Source: an uncultured Bacteroidales bacterium (GTDB lineage: Bacteria > Bacteroidota > Bacteroidia > Bacteroidales > F082). From it: 49,762 nt of DNA. A program made the translations under genes and the position numbers. The stretch is taken from assembly GCA_947303625.1 (NCBI GenBank), contig CAMYYV010000007.1:1-49762 (forward strand), written 5' to 3'. Below the pieces are notes generated by a model. It had not been told where the DNA came from and did no database searches. It worked only from the letters and a program-made list of their open reading frames with translations. Positions 29,518-37,333 of this stretch are shown here, piece by piece (positions within the stretch are counted from its first letter, which is position 1; every line of letters starts with the position of its first letter).

Positions 29518-29646
29518 TAAATACGTTGCAAAAATAGGAAAACTATTGTTTCGGCGATAAAAAGTGAGCCAAATCTTCGATTCGACGGAGTCAATAACTC
29601 AAATATCGCGCCAAAATTTCTATTTTTGCTGCACAAAAACACCGCT

Positions 29647-30948
29647 ATGCGTCCCAAAAACTACCTATTAATATTATTATTGCTCGCGCTGACCGTCTTT
29701 TCCGCTAACGCACAAGACGTGCTCACCGTGATGCAGTACAACTTGTTGGAATACGGCAATTATCAAAGCGGCTTTGCCGACTGTTATGAGACCAACAACA
29801 ACACCCAACGCAAAGACGAATGCATTCGCACCCTGTTGGATTATGTGAAGCCCGACATCTTCACCGTATGCGAGTTTGGCGCCACACAAGCCCTGCTCAA
29901 CGACTTCGTGCGACACAACCTCAACATCAACGGGGCCAACTACTGGAAGACCGACAACATCATCAACTACGCGGGCAGCAACATCATCAACCACATCTTT
30001 TACGACTCCCGCAAGATGGAACTCAAGAAACACGTGGCACTGCGCACCAACCCACGCGACACAGACATCTACGAACTCTACCTGAAGACGCCCAACCTGG
30101 CCGCCGGCGACACTGTCAAACTCATTTGCATCGTGGCCCATCCCAAGGCGGGACAAGGCTACGAGGCCGCGCGCCGCGCCCAAATGCAAATCGCCATGGA
30201 CTATATAAACCAATATTACCCCAAAGATAACGTGTTGATTATGGGCGACTTCAACATGTATAGTGCCAGCGAGAGCGGCTACAAACTGCTCACCCAGACC
30301 TACAGCAACCCTGAGATTTGTTTTATGGACCCCTTAGCATACATTGGTGGCGTGGGCGAATGGAGCAACAACAACTCTTTTACCGCCTTCCACACACAAT
30401 CGACCCGCTCCTATTCCGAGGAATGTTTCTCGGGCGGCGGGTTGGACGACCGCTTCGACTTCATCCTAATGGCCGACGAAATCGCCTTCAGCTACAACCA
30501 CATGCGCTATGTGCAAGGCTCCTATAAGGCCATCGGCAACGACGGGCACCATTTCAATATGAGTATCAACCAAAGCAACACGTCGGTGCCTGCCGACGTC
30601 GCCGAAGCCCTCTTTGACGGCTCCGACCACCTCCCCGTGACGATGAAGATTGCGGTGGATGTACATCTCGGTGTCGACGACACCGAGGCTGAGAGCCTGC
30701 AAGCCTCTGTTGCACCCAATCCGGCTTCCGACAAAACCGTGGTACACTTTTTCAACCCCACGCAGGGACAAGTGGAATTCGGTTTGTATTCGCTGCAAGG
30801 GCAATTGATGGCCAAGGAATCCAACCATTTCGATAACGGCTCACAACAACACGAATTATCGTTGGAAGGACTGACGAAGGGATTTTATTTGCTGCAAATG
30901 AAGCATGATAATGGCTGGCATCAAACGGTAAAAGTTGTTATTAAGTAA
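29647..30948 (+). CDS. Secreted endonuclease/exonuclease/phosphatase-family protein with T9SS sorting domain
   Basis: Signal peptide, NVLIMGDFNMYS, GSDHLPVTM, C-terminal VAPNPASDKTVVHF...KGFYLLQMKHDNG; start ATG 29647. Confidence 0.87.
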   Translation: MRPKNYLLILLLLALTVFSANAQDVLTVMQYNLLEYGNYQSGFADCYETNNNTQRKDECIRTLLDYVKPDIFTVCEFGATQALLNDFVRHNLNINGANYWKTDNIINYAGSNIINHIFYDSRKMELKKHVALRTNPRDTDIYELYLKTPNLAAGDTVKLICIVAHPKAGQGYEAARRAQMQIAMDYINQYYPKDNVLIMGDFNMYSASESGYKLLTQTYSNPEICFMDPLAYIGGVGEWSNNNSFTAFHTQSTRSYSEECFSGGGLDDRFDFILMADEIAFSYNHMRYVQGSYKAIGNDGHHFNMSINQSNTSVPADVAEALFDGSDHLPVTMKIAVDVHLGVDDTEAESLQASVAPNPASDKTVVHFFNPTQGQVEFGLYSLQGQLMAKESNHFDNGSQQHELSLEGLTKGFYLLQMKHDNGWHQTVKVVIK

Positions 30949-30953
30949 AAACA

Positions 30954-31023
30954 GGCCTCAACAGGTATGTCATCCCTACGGGGGCTGGTGGGCAAAGGCA
31001 TGGGATCTATAGCTGTTGAGGCC
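30954..31023. repeat. Hairpin element copy 1 (ggcctcaacag/ctgttgaggcc outer stem)
   Basis: Core tgtcatccctacg...ggcatgggatctat. Confidence 0.85.
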
Positions 31024-31081
31024 GTCATTATAAGACTTTTACCTCTTATTAACCGCTTTCCAAAGATTCTTATCCTACAAT

Positions 31082-31142
31082 CCCGCTGCCCATAGATTCC
31101 ATGCCTACACACTACCTCTGCAGGAATGACATGAGCAGCGGG
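31082..31142. repeat. Hairpin element copy 2, inverted (cccgctgc/gcagcggg outer stem)
   Basis: Core on minus strand tgtcattcctgc...ggcatggaatctat. Confidence 0.8.
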
Positions 31143-31171
31143 GCTTTGACATGGGAGACTGGTATTTTCAG

Positions 31172-31237
31172 GCTTTAGAAAGCATGTCATCCCTACGCTG
31201 AACCGAGCGGTGGCATGGGATCTATGCTTCCTAAAGC
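31172..31237. repeat. Hairpin element copy 3 (gctttagaaagca/tgcttcctaaagc outer stem)
   Basis: Core tgtcatccctacg...ggcatgggatctat. Confidence 0.85.
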
Positions 31238-31243
31238 TATTTT

Positions 31244-34200
31244 TTACTCTCCTACAACAATCCTCATTCCATCCGAATACGCACTAAACTCCGGCGCATA
31301 CTGGCACTGGATCAAGGCGTAGCCATTGTTGAGGTGGCCTTCCTTGGTGACGAACATGCTGTACTCCAGCTGGTGCGTGCCCTTGGGCAGGAACTCGATG
31401 AAGAACTCCATGTCGGTGTCGGTGTTGCTCTGGTAGTAGCTCATGCGGTCGTTGTACTCGTAGCGCGAGATTTGCTCTATCGGTTCGAAGCCTGCTGCGC
31501 GGAGGTCTTTTACGAAGACATAGCTCATATCCTGCTGGCTGGTGAAGGTGATCTTCACGGTTATTTTATCTCCTACTTTTAAGGTCGGCCCTTCGACAAA
31601 CTCAGGGACCTTAGATCCTACAGGAACCAAAACCTTGCCCTTGTCGGTCACCGTCTCCACAAACAGCTCACGCTTGATGGTGAAGCCTGATTCATCACTC
31701 TTCACTTCGTCAATCGGGACGAAATACTGGCGGAATAGGCCACCCCATACCAAGTGCGGGGTCGGGTTGTTGACGGTGAGCTGTCGCATCTCCTGCGTCA
31801 CCTCGTTGGCGTTCCAACGGCGCTGGATGAAACCCGTGCCAGCCACTCCACCTTCTGTACTAATAGGCGTGTTGCCGAAGCGCAGGGTGACTTCCTTGCC
31901 TTCCTCGAACCAGTCGCTACCGCGCATCAACAGAGCATAGATGGCGTCGGCAGTGGAAGCCGAATTCTCCCAACTGTTGGTCTGCTTTTGGGTGAGCAGC
32001 CACACACGCAACTCATCAAGCATCTCTTGATTCTGGTCGATTTCAGCAAAGGCCGCCATGATGTTGGCATGGGTGGCAATGTGCGACTCGAACGAGAAGT
32101 ACTTCTTCGGCCAATACATACCGATTTGTTCGTTCTTCTGGGCACATTCCTTGAAGCTCTGAATCATCAGTTTGGCGGTCTTCTCGTTGCCGTTACGGTA
32201 GAGCACCAAGGCACCTTTCGAGCGTTGGTTGAAGTTGAATGAGGTCCACTCCTTATCGAAGCTCTTGAGGTAGTAGTCTTTCGCCTTGGCGAAATCCTTG
32301 TCGGAGTTCTGCACGTCGAAGAAACTCAAAGCATAGAGCTCGGCCAAGGTGTTGGAGCCGATGGGCCAGTCCTTGCCTTTGCTGTGCTTCTTCATGTAGC
32401 GGTAGGTCTCGGCCACATCGTATTCGAGATAACGTACGGCCTTGTCGCAGATGCGGTGGGCCGTGTTTTGGTCGGCCCTGCTCAACGAACTCAAGGCACC
32501 CATCTTCTGCAGTTTACCCATGCCGCTGAGGATGTAGGTGGTGATGTAGGCACTCTCAGGCATGCCGTCCATCCAAGGCCAGCCTCCATTGTATTTCTGC
32601 TTCTGTTCAATGAGATTCAGGGCGTTGGTCTGCTGACTGCGGAGCGTGTTCACCTCGAAGAGCGTGGCGATGCGGCTACGCTGTTCGGTCTCGCTCTTGG
32701 CCTCCAGCACCCAGGGCGTCTCTTGCAGCATGATGGCCTTCAAGTCTTGGTCTTTCTCGAGTTGCGAGAGCAAGGCATCGGGCGTCTCGATCTGCCACTT
32801 CTTGATGTAGTTCAAGAGGTTCGGAATGTGGTCGGCGATGTAGGACGACAGCGTGTTGGCGTAGAACACGTAGAAAGCTGTCTCGGCGCGGTCGGTCTTA
32901 ACGTTGGCCAGGTAAGGCAGGGCCTGCACGGCATACCATACGGGGTTGGTGCTGAAGTTAAGTGTCAGGCTGTAGTCGCGCTCGTGGCTGTCGGGGTTGG
33001 CGATAGCCTCGAAGTCGAAGACCTGTTCGGTCTCAGCTTTCACGGTGATGGGCAGGGTCTGTGTCATGAATATCTCGCTGCTCAGCACGGGAAGTAGGTG
33101 CTGCTCAGCGTCGCTGAACTGCCCCGCGTAGGCCGTGAAACGGAAGGCCAAGAGGCTGAGGTCGTATTGTCCCGCCACCTTCCAGCGCACTTCCTTGCTG
33201 CGACCAGGTTGGATGGTCTCCATCGAAATAGTAGAGGTCCCTGAGCCTGTCGAAGGGCCGGTCTCAACAATCATGTCAATCGGCTGCATCGAGCCTGCAT
33301 CGAAGATTTCAAGTTTCGCCTTGGGCGTGACAGGCTCGTCACCCGTGTTGATGACGTTGGCCACGAACCACAATGTGTCGTTGTCGTACATGTAGCGCGG
33401 CATGTCGGCCATGATCATCATAGGCTTGGAAGAGGTGAAGGTGTAGTCCTTGCGGCCCGTCTTGCGGTCCTTGGTGTAGGCCAGCAACATCAGACGCCAA
33501 CGCGTGAGGGCGTCGGGCATGGTAAAGCTGAAGGTAGCACTGCCATCCTTGTTGGTGCGCAACTGCGGGAAGAAGAATGCCGTCTCGTTGAAGTTCTCAC
33601 GGAGGGCAGGTTCGGCTTTTTCGCCTTTGCCACCCGAAGAATTGGGAGTTTCCTGTTTTGCTATTTCTTCCATATCCTCCTCTACCTCAGCCGATTCAAC
33701 ATAGGCATTGACCATCTCGTACTTTTGCACTACACTTCCTGCCATGGGCGCGTCTAATTCCTCCAGTACCATCTCGTCGTACACCGCTCTTCCTAAACCA
33801 CCGGCACGGCTTTTATTATAACGGTAGACACGGATGTAATCGAAGAACGGCGCATCGGAAGGCAGACTGAAGTTGAACAATTCCGCAAAATAGTAGTATT
33901 CCAAGCCTGTGTAAGAAGAGGTGAAGCCGTGGGCATCGGTACCGAAGCTGCGGCTGCTGACACTTGAAGGCGACATGCTGAACCACCAATAATGGCTCGT
34001 GAATTCGTCCAATGAGGCATCGTACATCCCTGCCAGCAAACCGGCTTCCAAAGGCTTGTCCTTGAAGTCGCGGACGGTCACCTCCCAAGTCTCCTCGGCG
34101 CCAGGACTAAGCTTATCACGCATCGTGGCCAGTTTTACATCCAAATCATAGTTGTCGAAGGGCACAGAGACCCCTATATGACCCGTGTTGAAGCTACTTT

Positions 34201-37200
34201 CCTTCACGAAGGCATAACGCCAGCAGAGTCCGCCACGGTCTTGCTCCGTCACCTTATAAGAAAGAGTCTGCACGCCGTTGCTGATGCTGATTTTCTTGTC
34301 CAAGCGAATCTCGTCGCCATGGAGCAGCTGCACCCAAATGTCGACATCTTTGGCCGCACTGCCGATGCTGAGTTGAATCTCGTCGCCGGGATGTGCCGTC
34401 GACTTGTCCTGATGCGCCCATTCCATCGTGGTGTAGGGAAGTTTTTTGGAGTCCTTCTCAAAGACAGTGAACTGCTGAGAAATCTTGGCCAAGGTGTCGT
34501 CAAGGCTTGTGAGCTCCACGACATATTTTCCGGGTGCCAAAGCCTTGCCTTCATAAAGCTTGGCCTTGTCGTCCACCATGATTTCAGATTCAAAGACCAA
34601 GGTCCCTAAGCCTGTCGAAGGGCCGGCTTGCTTATCATAGAAACTATATGCAGGGAACAACCTCTCCAGTTCAGCATCGCTCAGCAGCTGCCTGTCCAGT
34701 TTATCTGAACGTCCCATCGCCTCAAAATAATTGATTTTGGCGACATCCTCATAGCGATAAATCTTGCGCGCGATGCGGCTCTTGGCAGGCTGCCAGCTGA
34801 GGTTGCTCACATTGATCTGATACTTACCGATGTCGGATTTCTCTACCACGGCAGGCAGGTCTGTGCTGATGGCTATTTCGTTGTAGCCCGCGCGGATGCT
34901 ATAGGTGTCGGCATGGGTCTCGCCCTGTTTGCTTGTGGCTGTCACCTCGATTTCGTAAGTGAACACAGGCTGTTTCTCAGGTGCAATGCTCAGCGAAGGC
35001 TTGAGGTTGAAGGTGACGGCAAACTTACCGTCGGCGTCGGTACGAGCCTTGCCGTAGGTGATCTGCTCGTCTTCGACAGTCGGGTACCACCACCACCAGC
35101 AACGCCAAGGGAAGGAGGTCTTGCGGATGACCCGGTAGCTGTATTCCACATCGTCCAAGCCGAAGCCGGCATAGGCCTTCACATCGCCACGCACCGTCAC
35201 TTCCTGGTTGAGTTTGTATTGCTCTTTCGGGCGCTCGAAGCTCACCTCGAAGGTCGGGCGCTTGTATTCTTCTACGCGAATGCTGGCACTGCCTTCTTTG
35301 GCATTGAGGCGGAACACACCGTTCAACCGGTCGGTGGGGATGACAAATGAGCCGCTGAACGTGCCGTATTCGTCGGTGGTGAAGTCGGCCCTGGTAATCT
35401 CCTGCCAATTGGTATCGCGGAACGAAACATATTCTGAATAGCCGTTGACGAGGCTCACCTCACCACCCTGGCTACGCGTCACGATGCCCTGGAAGTAGAC
35501 GGTTTGGCCGGGACGGTAGATGGCGCGGTCAGTGTAGAGCCTCGTGGTGTAGTCTTCCCTGGTGGTCTGGTAACGTTCACTGAGACGGAAATTGTTGTCC
35601 GACAGCAGGATGTCATCGCCCTTACGCAGGTTGATGCTGAAGGAGTTGTCGCTCGTTTTTTTCACTTCAGCTTTGCCATTGCGGTCGGTTTTCGGAGTGT
35701 CAACGATGATGGTCTTGTACTCACGGGCTTTATAGTCCCACTCGCGACGGTAGAGTTCCACGGTGACGCCTTCCACGGTTTTCCCCGTTTTGCGGTCCAC
35801 AGTCACTACGGTCATCTCATTGTCCTTTTGGTCGGTGATGAAGCCAAGGCTCGACACCTGGAAGGAAAGCACAAGGGTCTTGTCTTCATTGCTGATGCCT
35901 TTTTGTGTGGTGGCGGTCAGGAAGTAGATGCCGCGCTCCAAAGAGGGAAGAGCTATCAAAGTGCTGTGCTGGCGGTAGTCAGTCTCGGTAACCAAACTGA
36001 GCTCCTGTTCCGCAATAGCTTTTTTCTTGTTCAGTGCCTTGAGTCTGTCTTCACTGTCCATCTCTTTCAGTTTCTGCAGCTCGTTTTCGCTCACCTTGAC
36101 AATCCTATAATAGGGTGCGGTGGTGTTGCGGTATTCCAACACGGCAGGGATAGCTTCGTTAGGCAGCTGCACTGAATTAAGGGAGATGTGGATTTGTGGC
36201 TCTTCGATGCGTTTGACGAGATTTTGGCAGCTCTTCGCGCCCTTCGATTTCGGGAACTTGGCAATGGACTGCTCGCACATCGCCTTGGCTTTTTTGTAGT
36301 TGTCGAAATAGGCGCTATTACCGCTGTTGCTTTCCTGCTGATCGATCAGGTTGCGTGCCACCAGTGCGGTAATCTCGGCCGAAAGCGGGTTGTCGTTGTG
36401 CTGTTCCTTCAAGCTTTCCATTGCGGCTTGGTATTGCGCGTCCTTATCCAAGATGGAGTTGACAAATCCAAAACGCTTGAAGTCGTTGTAAATCAGCACA
36501 TCCTCATTGTCTTTTTTGAGGTTGTAGGCAATCAGTTCTTGGTAGATTTTGAGACATAGGGTGAGTGGATTGTCGGCCTCGCCCAAGTCGGCTTTCACGA
36601 AGTCCTTGGCGGGCAGCCACCACGCATCGGTCTCGCCTTCCACATCGTCGGCATTAGCTTGTTCCTTATAGTAATTTGCCACGCGGTGAAACATGAACTC
36701 AAACAGCGATGCCTCGTATTCGAGATATTCCGAATGGTTATCATTGTTTTCATAGAGTTCCATGAAATCCAACGTCTTTGCCTCTTTCAACGCCTCGACG
36801 GGTTTCAGCGCCTCGGCATAATGCTCGTTGATGCGGATGCGGAAACTCTCCTTGTCCCAATATTTCATCTCCACTTTCGATAGGTCGCCGTCGATAGCCA
36901 GGTTGTCGTTGATGGTCCACTCGTTGTTGTCGAGGTATTCGGCATAAGCGCGTGCGATTTCCTCATGCAACAAGGCATCGTGCACAGCGTCGAGTTGTCC
37001 GACTTTGCTCTCGATATACTGGATAAAGGCCTGTTCGGGGTCTTCCTCTACGGTAAATTCATAGATTTTCTGCCTGAAGAGCCAAGTCTTCAGCAGTTGG
37101 GTCTGGTTTTTGTCCTTCGAGGCCTTCGCCTCGATGGCATTAAGCTCTTTCTCTGCCGACTCTGGCAGGTCTTTTTCGAGGTTCTCCTTTACTTTTTTCC

Positions 37201-37333
37201 ACATAGTCTCATAGTTGTTTTTCGGGGTTTGGGGATTGTCGGATTGGTTGGGGTTCTTGCCTGGCATGGCAAAAGCCAACACGCCGATAGCCACTAAGGC
37301 AACAGTGGCAATGATGATTCCGGTGCGCTTCAT
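31244..37333 (-). CDS. Bacterial alpha-2-macroglobulin family protein (MG2/A2M)
   Basis: 2029 aa; YTDRAIYRPGQTVYFQGIV, FFPQLRTNKDGSATFSFTMPDALTRWRLMLLAYT, YNGGWPWMDG. Confidence 0.93.
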   Translation of the reverse strand: MKRTGIIIATVALVAIGVLAFAMPGKNPNQSDNPQTPKNNYETMWKKVKENLEKDLPESAEKELNAIEAKASKDKNQTQLLKTWLFRQKIYEFTVEEDPEQAFIQYIESKVGQLDAVHDALLHEEIARAYAEYLDNNEWTINDNLAIDGDLSKVEMKYWDKESFRIRINEHYAEALKPVEALKEAKTLDFMELYENNDNHSEYLEYEASLFEFMFHRVANYYKEQANADDVEGETDAWWLPAKDFVKADLGEADNPLTLCLKIYQELIAYNLKKDNEDVLIYNDFKRFGFVNSILDKDAQYQAAMESLKEQHNDNPLSAEITALVARNLIDQQESNSGNSAYFDNYKKAKAMCEQSIAKFPKSKGAKSCQNLVKRIEEPQIHISLNSVQLPNEAIPAVLEYRNTTAPYYRIVKVSENELQKLKEMDSEDRLKALNKKKAIAEQELSLVTETDYRQHSTLIALPSLERGIYFLTATTQKGISNEDKTLVLSFQVSSLGFITDQKDNEMTVVTVDRKTGKTVEGVTVELYRREWDYKAREYKTIIVDTPKTDRNGKAEVKKTSDNSFSINLRKGDDILLSDNNFRLSERYQTTREDYTTRLYTDRAIYRPGQTVYFQGIVTRSQGGEVSLVNGYSEYVSFRDTNWQEITRADFTTDEYGTFSGSFVIPTDRLNGVFRLNAKEGSASIRVEEYKRPTFEVSFERPKEQYKLNQEVTVRGDVKAYAGFGLDDVEYSYRVIRKTSFPWRCWWWWYPTVEDEQITYGKARTDADGKFAVTFNLKPSLSIAPEKQPVFTYEIEVTATSKQGETHADTYSIRAGYNEIAISTDLPAVVEKSDIGKYQINVSNLSWQPAKSRIARKIYRYEDVAKINYFEAMGRSDKLDRQLLSDAELERLFPAYSFYDKQAGPSTGLGTLVFESEIMVDDKAKLYEGKALAPGKYVVELTSLDDTLAKISQQFTVFEKDSKKLPYTTMEWAHQDKSTAHPGDEIQLSIGSAAKDVDIWVQLLHGDEIRLDKKISISNGVQTLSYKVTEQDRGGLCWRYAFVKESSFNTGHIGVSVPFDNYDLDVKLATMRDKLSPGAEETWEVTVRDFKDKPLEAGLLAGMYDASLDEFTSHYWWFSMSPSSVSSRSFGTDAHGFTSSYTGLEYYYFAELFNFSLPSDAPFFDYIRVYRYNKSRAGGLGRAVYDEMVLEELDAPMAGSVVQKYEMVNAYVESAEVEEDMEEIAKQETPNSSGGKGEKAEPALRENFNETAFFFPQLRTNKDGSATFSFTMPDALTRWRLMLLAYTKDRKTGRKDYTFTSSKPMMIMADMPRYMYDNDTLWFVANVINTGDEPVTPKAKLEIFDAGSMQPIDMIVETGPSTGSGTSTISMETIQPGRSKEVRWKVAGQYDLSLLAFRFTAYAGQFSDAEQHLLPVLSSEIFMTQTLPITVKAETEQVFDFEAIANPDSHERDYSLTLNFSTNPVWYAVQALPYLANVKTDRAETAFYVFYANTLSSYIADHIPNLLNYIKKWQIETPDALLSQLEKDQDLKAIMLQETPWVLEAKSETEQRSRIATLFEVNTLRSQQTNALNLIEQKQKYNGGWPWMDGMPESAYITTYILSGMGKLQKMGALSSLSRADQNTAHRICDKAVRYLEYDVAETYRYMKKHSKGKDWPIGSNTLAELYALSFFDVQNSDKDFAKAKDYYLKSFDKEWTSFNFNQRSKGALVLYRNGNEKTAKLMIQSFKECAQKNEQIGMYWPKKYFSFESHIATHANIMAAFAEIDQNQEMLDELRVWLLTQKQTNSWENSASTADAIYALLMRGSDWFEEGKEVTLRFGNTPISTEGGVAGTGFIQRRWNANEVTQEMRQLTVNNPTPHLVWGGLFRQYFVPIDEVKSDESGFTIKRELFVETVTDKGKVLVPVGSKVPEFVEGPTLKVGDKITVKITFTSQQDMSYVFVKDLRAAGFEPIEQISRYEYNDRMSYYQSNTDTDMEFFIEFLPKGTHQLEYSMFVTKEGHLNNGYALIQCQYAPEFSAYSDGMRIVVGE
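31587..31610 (+). repeat. 24-bp element copy, in frame in A2M gene (encodes VPEFVEGP)
   Basis: ggcccttcgacaaactcagggacc. Confidence 0.85.
33236..33259 (-). repeat. 24-bp element copy, opposite orientation, in frame in A2M gene (encodes GPSTGSGT)
   Basis: ggtccctgagcctgtcgaagggcc. Confidence 0.9.
34601..34624 (-). repeat. 24-bp element copy in frame in A2M gene (encodes GPSTGLGT)
   Basis: ggtccctaagcctgtcgaagggcc. Confidence 0.9.

Follow-up and report, generated by a model that had tools for sequence, protein, structure and literature searches.

The window, by which we mean the whole 49,762-nucleotide stretch of Bacteroidales DNA that was analyzed, contains an intergenic gap of 295 bp (30949-31243) between 2 convergent genes, one for a secreted nuclease-like protein, which matches Pfam PF18962 and TIGR04183 and has a PF03372 match just under the cut-off, and one for a bacterial alpha-2-macroglobulin (A2M), which matches Pfam PF00207, PF01835, and PF17973. 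The first-pass annotation had described this gap as filled by 3 hairpins, the middle one inverted; the gap and all 3 copies are confirmed, and we add a probable remnant arm of a fourth hairpin (Table 1).

Table 1. Features of the hairpin cluster and its flanking genes (positions in the window)
Feature	Positions	Strand	Description
Flanking gene, outside the element	29626..30948	+	Secreted endonuclease/exonuclease/phosphatase-family protein, T9SS sorting domain
Hairpin copy 1	30954..31023	+	Type A stem GGCCTCAACAGGTA/TAGCTGTTGAGGCC; core 30968-31010
Spacer	31024..31050	+	Kept in other type-A copies, where the partner hairpin in inverse orientation normally comes next
Probable remnant arm	31051..31069	not assigned	AACCGCTTTCCAAAGATTC; arm of the partner (type B) hairpin, the rest lost
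Hairpin copy 2, inverted	31082..31142	-	Stem CCCGCTGC/GCAGCGGG; core 31092-31131
Hairpin copy 3	31172..31237	+	Type A stem GGCTTTAGAAAGCA/TGCTTCCTAAAGC; core 31185-31225
Flanking gene, outside the element	31244..37333	-	Bacterial alpha-2-macroglobulin (A2M), convergent with the nuclease gene

All 3 copies share TGTCATNCC...GGNATCTA, enclosed in outer stems that are unrelated in sequence yet self-pairing, as had been claimed, with a single mismatch each. The arms are GGCCTCAACAG(g)TA and TA(g)CTGTTGAGGCC in copy 1 (G.G mismatch), CCCGCTGC(t)CA and TG(g)GCAGCGGG on the minus strand in copy 2 (T.G mismatch), and GGCTTTAGaAAGCA and TGCTTcCTAAAGC in copy 3 (A.C mismatch); on the plus strand, copy 3 is followed by a T run that reaches the A2M stop codon. 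Folded as single-stranded DNA of the TGTC strand, every copy outperforms all of its shuffles (z = -5.05, -4.40, and -3.33 for copies 1 to 3). A covariance model built with 2 of the 3 window copies, copy 1 being left out, recovers the three at E values of 4e-16, 5e-16, and 2e-14 in a search of the window.

A 95% identical counterpart of copy 1 lies at G000 contig C1:22416-22490; the match covers 75 bp, taking in the outer stem but hardly anything more, and ends near the same outer-stem boundaries. Positions 30952-31068 match 6 further loci (L121, L042, L142, L146, L141, and L116) at 73% to 85%. Because related copies run on into a complete partner hairpin at the position of the AACCGCTTTCCAAAGATTC segment (ACCGCTTTCCATAGATTCC...GGAATGACATGGAAGGCT in G007), this segment is probably what remains of a fourth hairpin. 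The gap as a whole is a repeat hotspot, since its orthologue in G002, G003, G017, and G022 carries other hairpin repeats (GTGTCTCCGACACGC type) and that in G007 carries several copies of the same element as the window. A second short repeat type lies in frame within the A2M gene itself (minus strand; 31580-31614, 33236-33259, and 34613-34624), where it encodes the peptides SKVPEFVEGPT, ETGPSTGSGTST, and QAGPSTGLGT and resembles GGCCCTTCGACAAACTCAGGGACC at the DNA level. Its copy at 31580-31614 has approximately 80% to 97% matches in many genomes of the same genus, hairpin-free ones included, and a similar peptide repeat is present in the FAD-linked oxidase described below.

Distribution and stem covariation of the hairpin family

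A strict pattern for the core matched 25 times in this genome and not once when read backwards. The covariance model, for which 40 divergent copies were aligned, identified 37 copies in the draft genome studied here (2.1 Mb) and at least 635 matches spread over 16 of the 37 genomes available for the genus, whereas no copies were detected in 24 genomes from other genera of the order. At most 87 candidates were scored in each genome, so that the largest counts may be underestimates; the comparison genomes are drafts, one per species. Within the genus, the distribution is patchy, with 0 to 68 strict-pattern copies per genome. A simpler relative of the core, TGTCATTCCGAGCGAAGTCGAGGAATCTA and its variants, occurs in G036, G048, and G060, and the copies of this type that we inspected (L037, L048, and L055) have flanks without pairing of the genus type. 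The element matched nothing in plasmid and phage collections, a covariance-model scan against 4227 Rfam families gave no match at E values up to 10, and we found no description of the family in open-licence papers. Adjacent copies are arranged tag-outward in 20 of 31 pairs, most of them 48 to 54 bp apart, and inverted pairs have approximately 51 bp between cores. One locus, L090 (G034 contig C21:16196-16790), holds 8 hairpins in mixed orientation within approximately 600 bp, with near-identical units repeated.

The unit is organized as an outer stem, a TGTC/CTA internal loop, an inner stem (ATNCC/GGNAT), and a variable loop. The inner stem is 5 bp long and the loop approximately 20 nt in most copies; the core measures mostly 36 to 42 nt, with a minority of 20 to 22 nt, and since most copies were collected with a search pattern in which the core is fixed, core variation is under-sampled. 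TGTC is present in 40 of 40 aligned copies but was required by the search pattern, which also imposed the CTA of the 3' tail (the consensus of CGTC-tagged REPs being CCA) and the AT of the inner stem. The tag sits inside the folded unit, where pairing of TG with TA is possible, TC/C forms the internal loop, and the outer stem carries on below. The middle pair of the inner stem was left free, and over 212 distinct copies it is T-A in 140, C-G in 49, G-C in 16, and another combination in 7, so the change from ATCCC/GGGAT to ATTCC/GGAAT noticed between the window copies is real and general.

The outer stem is usually at least 7 bp long and reaches 19 bp. Among 96 non-redundant stems, chosen so that no 8-nt arm is common to any two, 71 have at most one unpaired position out of 8, compared with a mean of 2.2 and a maximum of 8 over 1000 shuffles of the 3' arms. 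All 4 Watson-Crick pairs are used at most outer positions in this set, and the signal is lost when one arm is slid against the other. The 40-copy model set has a covariation score of 0.607, as against 0.167 when shuffled and at most 0.158 when slid; this set was picked for pairing, which inflates its 92% of paired cells, but the score is not due to that choice alone because the unselected 96-stem set gives the same signal. The structural proposal was to fall if a search turned up no more compensated copies; with at least 635 matches in 16 genomes and the scores just given, that outcome did not occur. Certain outer-stem types (GGCYTCARMARGYA, AGCCTCCCA, GCAGCCA, and TCGCCCA) recur among dispersed copies, and the outer stem therefore travels with the element.

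Insertions into genes and at terminators

Twenty-eight of 148 copies lie within reading frames that stay open for 300 nt or more to either side of the hairpin. These copies, whose cores mostly measure 36 or 39 nt, are inserted in both orientations relative to the host genes. In a FAD-linked oxidase, the hairpin adds approximately 20 amino acids in frame in G000, G020, G022, G030, G032, and G034, whereas the protein is uninterrupted in G002, G012, G017, and G025, as is the DNA also in G019 and G029. In BirA, G034, G003, and G025 carry an insertion and 7 other genomes have an empty site; PrmC is occupied in G000, G030, G002, G022, G032, G017, and G031, in the first of these directly before the SAM-binding motif, and empty in G025, G019, G023, G012, and G034. 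AroA of G034 carries 2 insertions. Copies are also nested, one within the loop of another, in BirA of G025 and G003 and in PrmC of G030, with a similar arrangement in PrmC of G000. No matching palindrome is present at the empty sites of the oxidase, PrmC, and BirA genes. At a glycosyltransferase gene site (L280, L282, L289, and L295), an unrelated palindromic insert (GTCATTGCGAGCGAAGCGAAGCAATCC type) occupies the position where some species carry the hairpin; 2 kinds of insert at a single site suggest a tolerant insertion loop in the protein.

A different setting is found 3' of one gene (the L018 site), where approximately 9 species carry an A-tract, a stem, the core, the other arm of the stem, and a T-tract; the stems differ between species but pair, the core is inverted in some species, and it is reduced to a minimal 21 to 22 nt in some. 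G010 and G030 have ordinary terminators without the core at this site. Runs of 4 or more T residues lie just outside 9 of 18 non-redundant short-core stems and 13 of 78 long-core stems, the latter to be compared with 12 of 96 further out. Short-core copies are thus often terminator-like and long-core copies mostly not.

The terminator-site copies, with plain terminators taking their place in 2 genomes, the T runs at short-core stems, and the convergent genes flanking the window gap, are what one would expect if the family consisted of intrinsic bidirectional terminators with a special loop cap, whose stems covary since terminator stems need only pair. We consider this quite improbable for the family at large, because T runs at long-core stems are little more frequent than further out and in-frame copies are unlikely to terminate their host genes. 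The same sites, and the report that some REP families lie within palindromes (Di Nocera et al. 2013, PMC3733652), could also mean that the core alone is mobile and enters the apex of existing palindromes, the outer stems belonging to the target. Such a scenario is unlikely: the same outer stem is dispersed, as in the 95% identity over 75 bp that takes in the outer stem of copy 1, certain stem types, GCAGCCA among them, turn up at sites that have no relation to each other, and the empty oxidase, PrmC, and BirA sites contain no palindrome, which disfavors it at coding sites in particular.

An RNA role needs separate consideration. The strong covariation and the invariant internal loop would suit a structured RNA, either a small RNA or a 3'-UTR element, that is selected for its fold and binds a protein through the TGTC/CTA loop while the outer stem is neutral, and mismatches on the TGTC strand lean toward G.T over A.C (44 versus 27). 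This excess is weak, however, with A.G mismatches as common as T.G, and the occurrence in both orientations, the in-frame hits to unrelated coding sequences, the nested copies, the patchiness among close species, and the lack of an Rfam match all make a selected RNA improbable. In-frame gene insertion, nesting, both orientations, and empty orthologous sites argue for mobile DNA instead of a locus-bound regulatory RNA, and a regulatory RNA specific to the window locus is unlikely. Accordingly, where the first-pass annotation had named RNA and a DNA hairpin substrate as its two options, we retain the DNA option; a locus-specific RNA does not accord with a repeat that is dispersed, patchy, present in both orientations, and in frame in unrelated genes.

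Mobilization, stem pairing, and relation to known repeats

The reading that we favor as probable is that of a REP-like mobile DNA palindrome, dispersed and non-coding, related to the CGTC-tagged REPs, in which stem pairing is kept mainly by hairpin-primed template switching, perhaps together with selection. The constant inner part, comprising the 5' TGTC tag, the ATNCC/GGNAT stem, and the 3' CTA, looks like a protein-recognition site, and the outer stem is nearly free in sequence while remaining complementary. Units enter gaps between genes, terminators, reading frames, and each other as inserted DNA, and by analogy with REPs they may move as a single-stranded hairpin that an HUH-type enzyme cuts at the tag. 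A lead for this enzyme is subclass 2.6 of TnpA-Y1, which is Bacteroidetes-specific and flanked by atypical structures (PMC6006769), though we found no mobilizing enzyme: just 2 of the 149 element loci contain a Y1 transposase gene, and these two are in the same genome, Y1 presence across genomes does not track copy number, and among the 30 best Y1 loci from the genus and the order none has such a core nearby, save for chance-like matches in two.

A RAYT gene (L128:3226-3933; G022 contig C15:51228-51932) is flanked by 2 hairpins in direct orientation, within a long intergenic region rich in repeats. We rejected a link between RAYT and the element, as an 83% relative (L126) has a hairpin flank on a single side, 78% to 87% relatives in G030 and G031 lack hairpins in their vicinity, and the hairpin-rich genomes G000 and G032 lack this RAYT. 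An integron-like attC array, considered for the direct-orientation runs of G022 (L128 and L137), was likewise discarded, because the intervals consist of mixed repeats, the RAYT gene, and a RhuM-family gene and form no cassette series.

Compensatory change had originally been read as evidence of selection on structure. The covariation is a direct observation and stands, but it does not prove selection, because template switching can also keep the arms complementary: during replication it creates and maintains perfect hairpins, with homogenization of the arms and inversion of the spacer (PMC8794818, PMC8604942). In the hairpins described here, copying of one arm onto the other by hairpin-primed template switching would be the main reason why the outer stem stays paired, perhaps aided by selection that keeps the substrate foldable or, at certain sites, preserves terminator function.

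At the oxidase site, the 3' arm reads GTCGGTTTCCC, an inverse copy of the gene's native sequence, and pairs with GGGAAACCGAC in G000; in G020, GGAAAACGAC pairs with GTCGTTTTCC, so that the arm follows a species-specific change, and the inverse copy GTCGGTTTCCC is absent from the empty sites. Pairing that extends into the coding sequence in this way points to template switching. Two features speak against template switching as the only cause: the arms also contain scattered single mismatches, which fit ordinary substitution and selection as well as they fit template switching, and in G034 the pairing is not extended there. The inversion of the core between species at the L018 site points in the same direction, although independent insertion in opposite orientation could also produce it; we used only the flips of this site, as a count over all orthologous pairs is contaminated by dimer partners. 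We conclude that template switching is the likely, though not proven, keeper of stem pairing.

It is tempting to go further and propose that the host supplies a portion of the outer stem, so that on or after insertion a replication fold-back would write out the neighboring host sequence in inverse, coding sequence included, giving each site a matched stem and a core able to flip. We regard this as doubtful: a clear inverse copy of the native flank is found at one site only, that of the oxidase, and the stems in BirA and PrmC resemble dispersed type A or type B stems, which suggests that the stem probably arrived with the element. In BirA, one apparent case of host sequence copied in inverse was set aside, as the stem there resembles a dispersed type A stem.

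Base-pair covariation is usually taken as proof of a selected RNA structure, and here hundreds of copies covary in a mobile DNA repeat, those within coding sequences included. The family is thus a natural test bed for apportioning covariation between template switching and selection, and it is also relevant to how CGTC-type REPs, which have no known transposase, are mobilized.

The closest known relatives, the CGTC-tagged REPs, have a CGTC or TGTC tag, an AT-first stem of 8 to 9 bp, loops mostly of 4 to 5 nt, and a short tail; they form head-to-head dimers, have no known transposase, are reported in Bacteroidetes, and include intragenic copies such as RPE-4 and RPE-6 of Rickettsia (Di Nocera et al. 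2013, PMC3733652). Our family shares the CGTC/TGTC tag at the 5' foot, the AT-first stem, the predominance of tag-outward dimers, the intragenic copies, and perhaps the short 3' tail, and no dedicated transposase was found for it either. The inner stem here is only 5 bp and the loop mostly approximately 20 nt, however, and the tag, unpaired and terminal in the CGTC-tagged REPs (PMC3733652), lies inside the hairpin, surrounded by a second, hypervariable outer stem; because of these differences in stem and loop length and in the tag, we call the family a related variant and not a member. The REP dimers reported inside palindromes are the nearest hint of such an outer stem that we found in the open-licence literature. 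As with RPE-4 and RPE-6, palindromes are found between genes and in frame in apparently functional genes, with in-frame insertions absent from orthologues (FAD-linked oxidase, BirA, and PrmC), which extends this Rickettsia-type habit to Bacteroidales, members of a different phylum; the outer stem covaries systematically here, whereas the text consulted describes no such covariation for the Rickettsia elements. REPINs and GTAG REPs associated with RAYT (TnpA-REP) are likewise short dispersed palindromes in inverted pairs with tags outward, but the tag here is TGTC and there is no consistent neighboring Y1 transposase. Finally, the homogenized arms and inverted spacers resemble those of template-switch (quasipalindrome) hotspots (PMC8604942, PMC8794818), which can affect any inverted repeat, whereas the same process would here operate in a mobile repeat whose core is conserved.
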